NCBI GenBank assembly: GCA_021740625.1
Contig: JAIOZK010000002.1
Location: 62,001 to 126,000 of the forward strand
Length of the DNA stretch: 64,000 nucleotides
DNA from: Bacteroidales bacterium
GTDB lineage: Bacteria > Bacteroidota > Bacteroidia > Bacteroidales > JAIOZK01
Direction of reading: 5' to 3'
Made by a program: the position numbers and the translations under genes. Below, in pieces: positions 50,052 to 55,314 of the stretch; position 1 is the first letter of the stretch; the number at the start of each line of letters is the position of its first letter. The notes under the pieces were generated by a model, which did no database searches, was not told the DNA's origin, and saw only the letters and a list, made by a program, of their open reading frames with translations.

Positions 50052-50726
50052 ATGTTATTGATGGACGAATTTAAAAAACCCCTGCGTGATTATTTATACC
50101 TGATTTCCCGCGATTATTCTTCAGCAGGAGCCAGGGATTTTGTGGGCAATCGTTACCATCTCAGCAGGGAAGAACGCAGCATACTGTACCGCGGTGTCTT
50201 TAAAACTGAAGAAAGCCAACGAAGGATGGAGCGATTGATTCCGGAGGAACAACTGAAGAATAAGATCCTGCATATAGATACATTCAATGTTTTGTACACC
50301 CTGGTTGCATATTATAATGGATTTCCATTGTTCATTGCTACGGATGGCGTCCTCCGCGACGCTGCGGAAATCCATACCAGAGAACCAAATATGAAAATAT
50401 TCAATCTTTCCCTGGACCGTTTGTTCTCATGTCTTGAGAAGAGTAAGGTTTCAGGAATCAGCCTGTACATTGATCACGCTGTGCCTGTAAGTCATGATCT
50501 GGTAGAATATTTCAGGAGAATCAAAGCATCATTTCGCGTCCCAGTTGAATATGCAAAATTTCATGATCCGGATGAGATTATGGGAAAAATGAGAACAGGT
50601 GTTTTATGTACTTCTGATTCTGAATTGATCCAGGCTTCTTCCATCCCTGTATTCGACCTGCCCCGCCATATTTTGCAAGCCAATTTTAATCCTGATTTTT
50701 TGGATTTAACGTATTTAAATGCTTAA
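50052..50726 (+). CDS. DUF434 domain protein
   Basis: 224 residues; ATG 50052 or 50061 (MDEFKKPLRDYLYL). The family signature YLISRDYSSAGARDFVGNRYHLSREERSILYRGVF and IDTFNVLYTLVAYYNGFPLFIATDGVLRDAA, then VSGISLYIDHAVPVSHDLVEYFR and VLCTSDSELI, are clear. Structure suggests a nucleotide- or tRNA-related function but this is not established. The stop is 16 bp before the TPP riboswitch, so it is unlikely to be regulated by it. Confidence 0.85.
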   Translation: MLLMDEFKKPLRDYLYLISRDYSSAGARDFVGNRYHLSREERSILYRGVFKTEESQRRMERLIPEEQLKNKILHIDTFNVLYTLVAYYNGFPLFIATDGVLRDAAEIHTREPNMKIFNLSLDRLFSCLEKSKVSGISLYIDHAVPVSHDLVEYFRRIKASFRVPVEYAKFHDPDEIMGKMRTGVLCTSDSELIQASSIPVFDLPRHILQANFNPDFLDLTYLNA

Positions 50727-50741
50727 TTTTGTAGATTGATT

Positions 50742-50905
50742 CCAATAGGGGTGCCTGAACGGATGAATCCGTTGCAACGGGCTGAGATCATACCCTTCGA
50801 ACCTGATCCGGGTAATACCGGCGGAGGGAGGAGAGAAAATCTCAAGTTCTTACAACATTTCCTCTATTGGTCTTTTTTGCATGTTTCATTTAAACTAAAA
50901 AGACC
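50742..50905 (+). promoter_or_regulatory. TPP riboswitch (THI element) with expression platform
   Basis: The aptamer (about 50748-50832) has the conserved blocks GGGGTGCC, GCTGAGA (50781-50787), ACCCTT, GAACCTGATCCGG and TAATACCGGCG-AGGGA. Upstream bases 50742-50751 (CCAATAGGGG) can pair along 10 bp with 50861-50870 (CCTCTATTGG), a stem followed by a T run (terminator-like). The T run and its flank 50869-50877 (GGTCTTTTT) can instead pair exactly with 50897-50905 (AAAAAGACC), the bases directly in front of the ATG at 50906. The overlap makes the two stems exclusive. Thiamin pyrophosphate should lower expression of the downstream receptor. Confidence 0.93.
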
Positions 50906-53368
50906 ATGAAGAAGTATTTAAAATCCTTAACAACATTAATCGCAATTCTCCCGCTTGCTGTCTATTCGCAGTATACACTCAAAGGGAAGGTGTTTGATGC
51001 ACAAAGCGGAAAGCCGCTACCCGGAGCACATGTGATCATAAAAAACACATTTAAAACTGCGGTGAGCGATAGAGAAGGTACTTATCAGTTTACCAGGCTG
51101 GATGCAGGCAAGTACAGCATCAAAGTTACCTATATTTCATATCAGCAGGCTGAAAAAAGCATACAACTTGAATCGGACCGGACATTGGATTTCAGTTTAG
51201 AACCCAAAACGATCATGACCGAAGAGGTGATCATCCGGGCCAGCAGGGTAGGGGAGAAATCACCTGCTACTTATGAAAATGTTACGAAAGATGAGATTGA
51301 AGAAGTCAACTTCGGGCAGGATATGCCTTATCTGATCGAAACAACCCCTTCTACCGTAGTTTCATCCGATGCGGGGACGGGTGTGGGTTATACCAACTTG
51401 CGCATCCGGGGCACGGACATCACACGCATCAATGTTACCATCAATGGTATACCACTGAATGACCCGGAGAGCCAGGGGGTATTCTGGGTGAACATGCCTG
51501 ATTTTGCTACTTCAGTTGATAATATTCAAATTCAACGTGGTGTGGGGAGTTCGGTGAACGGGGCTGCTGCTTTCGGGGCCAGCATCAACATACAAACCCT
51601 GGATCTGAAAAGCGATCCTTATGCCGAAGTGAGCAGCTTGACAGGTTCTTTCAATTCCTTTAAGAATAGTGTTTCTTTCGGTACAGGTCTGATCGGGGGG
51701 CACTGGAGTTTCGACGGACGCTTGTCGAAGATTACATCTGATGGATATATCGACCGGGCATTCTCCGACCTGAAATCATTTTATTTTTCAGGGGGGTATC
51801 ATGGTGAAAAAACAATGGTAAAGGCAGTTGTCTTCTCAGGAAAGGAAAAGACCTACCAGAGCTGGTGGGGCGTTCCGAAAGTGCGGCTGGAAAATGATTC
51901 TGAAGGTATGAAACGTTATTATGATCATTGGCTTTATACCGAAGAACAATATGAGCATATGCTGAATTCCGACAATCGAACATACAACTATTATACTTAC
52001 GAAAACGAAACCGATAATTACCAGCAAGACCATTATCAATTGCATGTTTCACATCAGTTCAGCAAAAAATGGCACCTGAATGCATCGGGGTTTTATGTTT
52101 ACGGCCGGGGTTATTATGAGCAATACAGGAATGAGGATCCATTTAGCGACTATGAATTACCAAATTTGATCATTGGTGATACAGTTATTGAAAATACTGA
52201 TCTGGCCCGGCAAAAATGGCTCGACAATGATTTTTATGGATCTAATTTTTCATTGCACTACAATGCAGGCAGAACTTCCGTGATCCTGGGTGGAGGTTAT
52301 AATCATTATACCGGCAGGCATTTCGGAAATATTATTTGGGCCGAATATGCTGCAAACATGAAAAAAGATTATGAATGGTACCGGAATACAGGTTTCAAAA
52401 AGACCTGGAATTTATTTGGCAAGATCAACACCGCACTTACGGAAAAACTGAATGCATACCTCGATTTGCAATACCGGGGCGTTAAGTATGATATTGATGG
52501 GATCCATGATGATTTGCGTAACATCACGCAGGAACATGAATTTAATTTTTTCAATCCCAAGGCCGGTTTATATTATGATCTCAATGAAAGCAACAGTATA
52601 TATCTTTCCTTCGGTATTGCAAACCGGGAACCCAATCGCAGCAATTACCGCGATGCCGATTCGAACGATGTTTTCAAAAGTGAGCGCCTGTATGATTTTG
52701 AATTGGGTTATGGTTTAAAAAAACAGGATTACGGACTGGAAGCAAATCTTTTTTACATGGATTACACGGATCAACTGGTCCTGACCGGAGAGATCAACGA
52801 TGTGGGTGCGGCCATCATGACCAATGTGCCGGAAAGTTATCGTGCCGGTGTGGAAGTTGTCGGCGGATTGAAGATCTTCGAAAACCTTAACTGGAAATTT
52901 AATGCCACATATAGCATGAACAAAATTATGGATTTTACTGAGTATGTTGACAATTGGGATGATACAACTGGCCTCGCTCCGCAGGTTTCAAAAAAACTGG
53001 GGCAAACCGACCTGGCCTTCTCCCCTGATTTTATTGCGGGCAGCCAGTTAAGCTGGAAACCACTGGCAGGTTTAAAGATAAATTTTATTTCCAAATATGT
53101 TGGCAGGCAATACATCGATAATACATCGAGCCTGAGCCGCAGCCTGGATCCCTACTTCGTAAATGACCTGGTGATCAATTATACTTTTAAGACCGAATTC
53201 ATTGAAGAGATCGGTTTGCACCTGATGGTCAATAATATCTTTGATGAAAAGTATGAAACCTATGCCTGGGTGTATCGCTATAAGTTAAAAAATAAGTTCT
53301 GGGAAATGGATGGATACTTTCCGCAAGCAGGTGCCAATGTGATGGGAGGTGTGACTCTGAAGTTTTAA
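50906..53368 (+). CDS. TonB-dependent outer-membrane receptor, probably for thiamin
   Basis: 820 residues. Signal peptide, CarboxypepD_reg-like domain (about 24-105: LKGKVFDAQSGKPLPGAHVIIKNT), plug (about 120-230; FGQDMPYLIETTPSTVVSSDAGTGVGYTNLRIRGTD) and a 22-strand beta-barrel to the C-terminal aromatic end (VMGGVTLKF). No SusD-type partner follows, so it is a nutrient receptor rather than a polysaccharide system. The TPP riboswitch in its leader indicates thiamin or a precursor as substrate, matching known riboswitch-controlled receptors of Bacteroidota; those are usually followed by pnuT and a kinase, which are absent here. Energy would come from TonB/ExbBD encoded elsewhere. Confidence 0.9.
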   Translation: MKKYLKSLTTLIAILPLAVYSQYTLKGKVFDAQSGKPLPGAHVIIKNTFKTAVSDREGTYQFTRLDAGKYSIKVTYISYQQAEKSIQLESDRTLDFSLEPKTIMTEEVIIRASRVGEKSPATYENVTKDEIEEVNFGQDMPYLIETTPSTVVSSDAGTGVGYTNLRIRGTDITRINVTINGIPLNDPESQGVFWVNMPDFATSVDNIQIQRGVGSSVNGAAAFGASINIQTLDLKSDPYAEVSSLTGSFNSFKNSVSFGTGLIGGHWSFDGRLSKITSDGYIDRAFSDLKSFYFSGGYHGEKTMVKAVVFSGKEKTYQSWWGVPKVRLENDSEGMKRYYDHWLYTEEQYEHMLNSDNRTYNYYTYENETDNYQQDHYQLHVSHQFSKKWHLNASGFYVYGRGYYEQYRNEDPFSDYELPNLIIGDTVIENTDLARQKWLDNDFYGSNFSLHYNAGRTSVILGGGYNHYTGRHFGNIIWAEYAANMKKDYEWYRNTGFKKTWNLFGKINTALTEKLNAYLDLQYRGVKYDIDGIHDDLRNITQEHEFNFFNPKAGLYYDLNESNSIYLSFGIANREPNRSNYRDADSNDVFKSERLYDFELGYGLKKQDYGLEANLFYMDYTDQLVLTGEINDVGAAIMTNVPESYRAGVEVVGGLKIFENLNWKFNATYSMNKIMDFTEYVDNWDDTTGLAPQVSKKLGQTDLAFSPDFIAGSQLSWKPLAGLKINFISKYVGRQYIDNTSSLSRSLDPYFVNDLVINYTFKTEFIEEIGLHLMVNNIFDEKYETYAWVYRYKLKNKFWEMDGYFPQAGANVMGGVTLKF

Positions 53369-53676: not shown

Positions 53677-55314
53677 TTATTGAATGATCAGTTTTTTGCT
53701 GTATTGATGATTTCCGGTCTGCAGTCGGAGGATATAGATTCCTTTGCCCAGTTCATTGCCTGATGCATCGGTACCATCATAGGTATATGATTTCTCTCCG
53801 GCTTGTTCCATACCTTCAGAAAGTGTCTTAACCTTTTTCCCGTTCAGGTCGTAAATTTCAAGAATCACATACATCTCTCCTGGGAGGATGTAGCGGATCT
53901 TTGTATAATCCCTGAATGGATTAGGAGCACCCCCCCCAAGTACAGCACTTCCAAATGGATTGGTAGCCTCTCCGATACCGGTAGAACTATCCAGAATACT
54001 CAGGCCTTTGATACAAAAGTTACCTGTATTCTGATATCCTGAAGGATCGTCATAATCGTAAAAATCCATCCATCCATCTCCATCCATATAATAACTTTGC
54101 CCGGGTTCGGCGCTTGATTCTACGGTCGTTCTGCCTGAGGCCCCCAGCAATACAGGAACATCCGAAGTGCGGTCGTAAGGTTGTCCGCCTTTTTCCAGAT
54201 ACAAGTAAATGTAAAAATCATCCCCTTCATCAAGATGGACATCCTGATCAAGATTTATCGTGGTAAAACCATGATATTCCAACCATCCGGAGTGCGTATA
54301 TAATTCATCACTGAGTTGCCCGCCTTCAAATGTATCGTATATGGTAAAGGTAAAATCGGTAGAGTCTCCGGCATAAAAAAAGTTAACTGCTTTCAGGATC
54401 TGGTCGCTGCTGGCTGTAAAAGCATTGAATACTTCCTGGCAGTCTTCCTTGGTGTCGCGCCATCCGTGGTAATCATGATAATAAGTGACATCATATTCCA
54501 GGCGGTCTACTTCCTGGAATGAAACAGCACCCATCTCGGGCTCCCGGCATGCCCATTTGTCGTAATAGGAAATAAAGAAATAACCATCGTATCCCCAACT
54601 TGATCCCCAGCTATTCTTTACGATCCAGGCACCTGGTTCCGGGGCCTGGGTGTCTTTGGTATCGTCCCAGCCAACAATGGCAATCGCATGATTGGGCAGG
54701 TCGCTGGTTGAAGGCGGCTGGTAATGGGTATAAGACCAGTTGATATAACTTCCACTGTAACACATACAGGTACCGAGGACGCCATGGTCCATGATGGCCT
54801 GTTTGATGATATCTATGCCATTTAGTTGTTCGTCCATGGTATACCAATGAACCTTGCGTGGGAAGTAATAATGAAAACTTGTGTCTTCCATGGGGGGTGC
54901 TGTTTCATAGGATTGTCCGTCGATATCCCTGACAGCCCCTGTGTTTCTTGAAAGATAAGCAGTCGTAACCATGTAATCGCCCCCCATGTGCACTTCCAAC
55001 CCATTGCCGGTTGGGGGGTCAATATCCGCATTATAATGTTCGTTGAAACCATTCCACCAGTCGAGGTGGTATTCGGCCAGGGCTGGTTCACCATTTTCTC
55101 CATTGTCGGCCCAGACGCCTGTCATCAGGAGGTTGCCCTCCATGGCAGCCATGGCACCATGAGTCCAGCAGGTGCCTCCTTGCTGGTTTTTTACGGATGT
55201 TACATAATTCTCACCGTCATAGTCGCGGAGATCGAATTGCTCCGGTAAATCTCTTTGTGCAAACAGGAGGTTTGAAATGATCAGTCCTCCAACTAAGAAT
55301 GTAATAAATTTCAT
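53677..55314 (-). CDS. Secreted papain-like (C1A) cysteine protease with type IX sorting signal
   Basis: 545 residues. Signal peptide to about 20, no visible propeptide, and directly the protease domain [12 protein letters not shown]. Catalytic residues: Gln in KNQQGGTCW with Cys49, His209 ([12 protein letters not shown]) and Asn234 ([12 protein letters not shown]). A beta-sandwich, lectin-like region follows (about 265-420; [23 protein letters not shown]), then a type A T9SS C-terminal domain (about 465-545: [39 protein letters not shown], ending [21 protein letters not shown]). So it is exported through the type IX system to the cell surface or medium and degrades proteins. Lack of a propeptide is noteworthy for this family. 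Confidence 0.95.

Follow-up and report, generated by a model that had tools for sequence, protein, structure and literature searches.

Introduction

The TPP riboswitch of E. coli thiM acts through a translational platform built from a sequestor and an antisequestor. The sequestor/antisequestor scheme has been described for the TPP riboswitch (THI element, RF00059; PMC2258182): ligand breaks the antisequestor and a sequestor of the initiation region forms. For Bacteroidetes a 2017 study called the action of TPP riboswitches uncertain (PMC5613172). The OMthi/pnuT/thi TPP riboswitches of Bacteroides lie before a TonB-dependent outer-membrane thiamin transporter, and in B. thetaiotaomicron thiamin leaves the mRNA of OMthi (BT_2390) unchanged, as a translational switch would predict, whereas the mRNA of the biosynthesis operon changes (PMC5613172). 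The title of a 2019 preprint by Costliow, Degnan and Vanderpool (bioRxiv 867226; cited in PMC7366714) claims transcriptional or translational control by TPP in Bacteroides, and an RNA-seq survey that included Bacteroides reported termination in only 6 of 57 TPP riboswitches, none of the six from Bacteroides (PMC12121620). Translation in Bacteroidota is initiated without a Shine-Dalgarno sequence and is tuned by structure and by adenines near the start (PMC6847099).

Here we analyze the leader of a TonB-dependent receptor gene in a Bacteroidales genome, located in a stretch of 64,000 nucleotides that we refer to as the window. It is mostly an ordinary riboswitch of a known kind, a TPP aptamer with sequestor/antisequestor control; what may be new is the evidence, drawn from across Bacteroidota, for a single covarying platform of three segments at the start codon.

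Results and Discussion

Aptamer, Promoter and Receptor Gene

The leader (50732-50905, plus strand) is flanked upstream by a DUF434/DUF5616 gene with its stop at 50724-50726 and downstream by the receptor gene (50906-53368, plus strand). A preliminary description of this DNA had placed a TPP riboswitch before the receptor and this is borne out: RF00059 matches over its full length (model positions 1-105) at 50737-50846 on the plus strand with 67.8 bits (E 3.4e-11), compared with a gathering score of 54.3, and with 150 of 273 first-look candidates scored it is the sole TPP match in the genome. The P1 helix of the aptamer is weak, 3 of its 5 model pairs being non-standard. Directly downstream of the riboswitch, the ATG at 50906 opens a reading frame of 820 amino acids in which the TonB plug (PF07715), the β-barrel (PF00593) and PF13715 are all over cut-off, and we regard the gene as a probable outer-membrane thiamin receptor. 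Searches of this genome for ThiC and for thiamin pyrophosphokinase (PF04263) returned no match, and its one PnuC-family transporter is without a TPP riboswitch of its own; with an assembly that is 95% complete, the organism is a possible thiamin auxotroph. Convergent with the receptor gene is a gene on the minus strand (53680-55314) for a papain-family cysteine protease with a lectin-like domain and a type IX secretion sorting tail.

A likely promoter of the Bacteroidota type (50699-50731, plus strand) consists of TTTG at 50699-50702, a 21-nt spacer and the −7 box TAATTTTG at 50724-50731, overlapping the TAA stop of the upstream reading frame and following the TAnnTTTG consensus (PMC9723704). 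The pattern is weak on its own, since it occurs 6 times in the window against 3.85 expected; in 148 of 159 leaders, TAnn(n)TTTG precedes the GGGG of the aptamer by about 23 nt (interquartile range 22-25). The position of the −7 box likely puts the transcript start a few bases 5' of the aptamer.

Comparison began with the 80 receptor genes closest to this one in a set of bacterial genomes. In all 79 leaders of sufficient length the receptor is preceded by the aptamer core CTGAGA (L045, cut at a contig end, was left out), and addition of further orthologues from the same order gave 170 leaders, of which 166 could be parsed; within this order, relatives of the receptor were compared down to 34% identity. 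The 45 more distant genomes of the order mostly have the riboswitch directly before the receptor, and receptor orthologues across Bacteroidota carry it in the same place. A script assigned the starts and aptamer ends and dereplicated the set, so that single leaders can be misassigned.

Two Mutually Exclusive Stems

Three segments of the leader, which we denote X, Y and Z, can form two stems that exclude each other, one on an aptamer strand and the other over the initiation region. Segment X (50742-50751, CCAATAGGGG) is the 5' strand of the aptamer, comprising the P1 side and the GGGG of P2, and forms 10 pairs, one of them G-U, with the anti-sequestor element Y (50861-50870, CCTCTATTGG), exactly as the preliminary description had noted. 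The second stem joins 50869-50877 (GGTCTTTTT) to 50897-50905 (AAAAAGACC) in nine Watson-Crick pairs just before the ATG. It had been given as ending there; the nine pairs stand, but the stem is really one of 10 pairs, as U50868 forms a pair with the A of the ATG, A50906, and the sequestor thus has its 5' arm at 50868-50877 and its 3' arm, segment Z, at 50897-50906, all on the plus strand. Because of this additional pair the two stems overlap in three bases (U50868, G50869, G50870) rather than the two originally counted, and they remain mutually exclusive. Five bases of the T run at 50873-50878, counted from its 5' end, belong to the 5' arm, and in this leader the run serves to pair with the A-rich Z.

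The part of the leader downstream of the aptamer was subjected to dinucleotide shuffling, which gave a run of at least 10 pairs with X in 23 of 3000 cases, an exact stem of at least 9 pairs abutting the ATG in 3 of 3000, and both together in none of 3000. Among dereplicated orthologue leaders Y lies a median of 45 nt (interquartile range 38-54) 5' of the ATG. The X/Y/Z device is not universal, since L035, L063, L073 and L192 have an ATG almost directly 3' of the aptamer and are without a platform of this kind.

Covariation of the Two Stems

Because every leader has GGGG and C runs, the right null for covariation is one in which partners are swapped between leaders. With this null, X pairs with its own leader at a mean of −12.16 kcal/mol as compared with −10.52 kcal/mol for permuted partners (z −8.4, 85 dereplicated leaders), and none of 2000 permutations was as low as the own pairs. 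When Y is anchored on the C run alone, at least 5 of 6 flanking positions pair in 20 of 67 leaders, against 3.7 expected. A matched one-base deletion provides a direct example, X changing from CCAATAGGGG to CCAATGGGG (in longer form, from CAATAGGGG to CAATGGGG) alongside a change of Y from CCTCTATTG to CCTCATTG. The evidence for X:Y covariation rests on this wider comparison, as X is nearly invariant in the 13 nearest leaders, which are uninformative in this respect. Three other measures were set aside. Shuffling within each leader is a weak test (47 of 161 at p ≤ 0.05), since GGGG also pairs with the C runs retained in the shuffles, and was replaced by the swap tests; ungapped run length beyond GGGG is noisy, U runs pairing with anything; and placement of the C-rich element in a hairpin loop in distant leaders (22 of 67, 15.9 expected) was dropped.

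The pairing of Y with its own start region is likewise specific, with a swap z of −7.4 by energy (71 leaders) and of 9.4 by helix score (72 leaders), and a helix score of at least 20 is reached in 13 leaders where 0.9 are expected and swaps give 5 at most. In the 13 near leaders both sides change at 11 of 13 Y:Z pairs, with 25 both-side-changed cells against 8.4 in shuffles (0 of 500), in an alignment that leans towards structure, each leader having been placed by its best helix; sliding the partners abolishes the signal. The swap test is the fairer figure, because there the same selection is applied to the wrong partners. Comparison of related leaders had been proposed at the outset as a check on the two stems, and both covary (z −8.4 for X, n = 85; helix-score z 9.4 for Y:Z, n = 72), which supports the proposal of the preliminary description that the switch acts on access to the start codon.

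The range of natural variants is considerable. The Y:Z arms are UGGUCUUUUU/AAAAAGACCA in the window, AUUGAUUUUUAA/UUAAAAAUCAAU in L096 and L113, AUCGGUUUUAA/UUAAAACCGAU in L176 and, with the AUG included, UGUUGUAAGUUAU/AUAACUUAUGAUG in L141 and CGUUUCAUUUU/AAAAUGAAACG in L112; the AUG itself is inside the stem in L112, L104, L123, L125, L141 and L036. Two stems with so many variants amount to a supply of exact, testable mutants.

A natural insertion is seen in L007, from the same genus, which has the same X and the same Y and keeps both arms, GGTCTTTT and AAAAGACC, the latter directly before the ATG, with an insert of roughly 100-120 bases between them. The inserted sequence is present in at least 41 copies in its own genome, and therefore a dispersed repeat has entered the sequestor loop with both arms kept. 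The repeat (G001:C81:100334-100455) is about 100 bases long with internal inverted repeats, has one partial copy in the genome of the window and looks like an element of the MITE or REP type.

A Probable Translational OFF Switch

The best explanation of these results, and one that we hold with good confidence, is a translational OFF switch; that the aptamer binds TPP, which way it switches and that translation responds are what we infer. The transcript would start a few bases 5' of the aptamer. With TPP absent, X, the 5' strand of P1/P2, would pair with Y, so that Y:Z is barred and the region before the start is freer. Since X lies within P1/P2, TPP can bind only in competition with X:Y; bound TPP would let the aptamer take X and release Y, which together with the U run would pair with Z up to and including the first base of the AUG and block access of the 30S subunit. 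Less receptor would then be made when the vitamin is plentiful, an OFF logic of the sort expected for a vitamin receptor.

Aptamer and OFF logic are those of the thiM-type platform. Unlike in that platform, no Shine-Dalgarno sequence is sequestered here, the paired segment before the ATG (AAAAAGACC) containing no purine stretch of this type; the stem instead covers an A-rich region up to the AUG, and the antisequestor has the 5' strand of P1/P2 as its partner. The working principle would thus be the same without the classical feature, because it is the neighbourhood of the start codon that is covered. Given that Bacteroidota lack Shine-Dalgarno sequences and tune initiation by structure and adenines, a stem over an A-rich segment and the AUG is a plausible block, and the two stems suggest how a riboswitch can control translation without a Shine-Dalgarno sequence, by pairing the start-codon neighbourhood itself.

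Folding calculations are in part consistent with this scheme. The Y:Z hairpin has an energy of −8.9 kcal/mol, as compared with −3.6 kcal/mol for the best local fold with Y removed, and over all leaders the start region becomes more open when Y is blocked than when other segments are (Wilcoxon p 0.004). Only 20 of 71 leaders show an effect above 0.1, and distant leaders may therefore use other structures. Even with X:Y enforced the AUG is not free in the model, the weaker hairpin (−3.6) forming over it. The two enforced states, at −50.4 and −48.9 kcal/mol, are separated by 1.5 kcal/mol, less than the method's error, and the minimum obtained without constraints corresponds to neither.

That a different hairpin covers the AUG once Y is blocked is what might be expected if, in a translational OFF switch with a real X:Y stem, it were mainly other pairings that hide and expose the start, Y:Z being one of several structures. 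Many distant leaders from which Y:Z is absent from view, some of them seemingly with their first codons as Z, point the same way. We nevertheless consider such an arrangement unlikely, in light of the strong Y:Z covariation in near leaders and of the retention of both arms around the repeat inserted in L007.

Transcription End

The preliminary description had further suggested that the switch acts on transcription end. Attenuation, alone or together with translational control, would require that the U run at 50873-50878 follow the stem of an intrinsic terminator, be it X:Y or a different one, and the 10-pair stem does end directly 5' of GGTCTTTTTT; moreover, CCCC followed by a U run occurs in the distant leaders L183, L187, L208, L209 and L213. 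However, a terminator-like hairpin was sought in the leader of the window and none was found, and the stretch from aptamer to gene contains no GC-rich hairpin that leads into a U tract. Such a hairpin is seen in just 4 of the 85 dereplicated leaders of orthologues, a T5 run 3' of Y is present in 14 of 71, and in the near relatives L141, L176, L104 and L015 the Y:Z stem lacks a U run. In addition, the loop enclosed by X:Y exceeds 100 nt, and this stem would be the one present without TPP; a stop there would therefore shut the receptor off when the vitamin is scarce, the wrong logic. The unchanged OMthi mRNA of B. thetaiotaomicron (PMC5613172) argues against attenuation as well. With no terminator in the leader and a T run that is not conserved, this part of the proposal is unsupported, and we judge it quite improbable.

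Some of these genomes do have true terminators in a different TPP leader. L204-L206, Bacteroidales leaders before a probable thiM, have the same aptamer and order as the receptor leaders and carry a GC-rich hairpin and U tract, a classical terminator, which is absent from receptor leaders, including those of the genomes from which L204-L206 derive. We put forward only tentatively, as somewhat short of an even chance, that the translational platform is phylum-wide and independent of Shine-Dalgarno sequences, the receptor TPP leaders of Bacteroidota sharing a device of aptamer 5' strand, Y and start, with Y about 45 nt before the AUG, and other thi leaders in some of these genomes using terminators.

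Finally, a largely A-U Y:Z stem and modest single-leader p values (23/3000 for X:Y; 0.020) might indicate that the complementarities arose by chance from the A/T-rich composition of the leader; this reading is contradicted by the swap tests and the counts of pairs changed on both sides and is exceedingly improbable.

Other Leader Architectures

Two groups of leaders differ in the region around the start. In Dyadobacter and relatives (L022, L024, L027, L028 and L067) GATAGGT and TTCGTAAC, upstream of the start, seem able to pair with GTTACGACCTATC in the first codons, which suggests a sequestor reaching into the coding region. Pedobacter leaders (L046, L047, L066, L071, L080 and others) have a short conserved reading frame (ATGGAGTTTAACTGGGCTGTAAGTACCCCT...) between the aptamer and the receptor start that overlaps the C-rich Y element and could be a leader peptide or merely a conserved hairpin.
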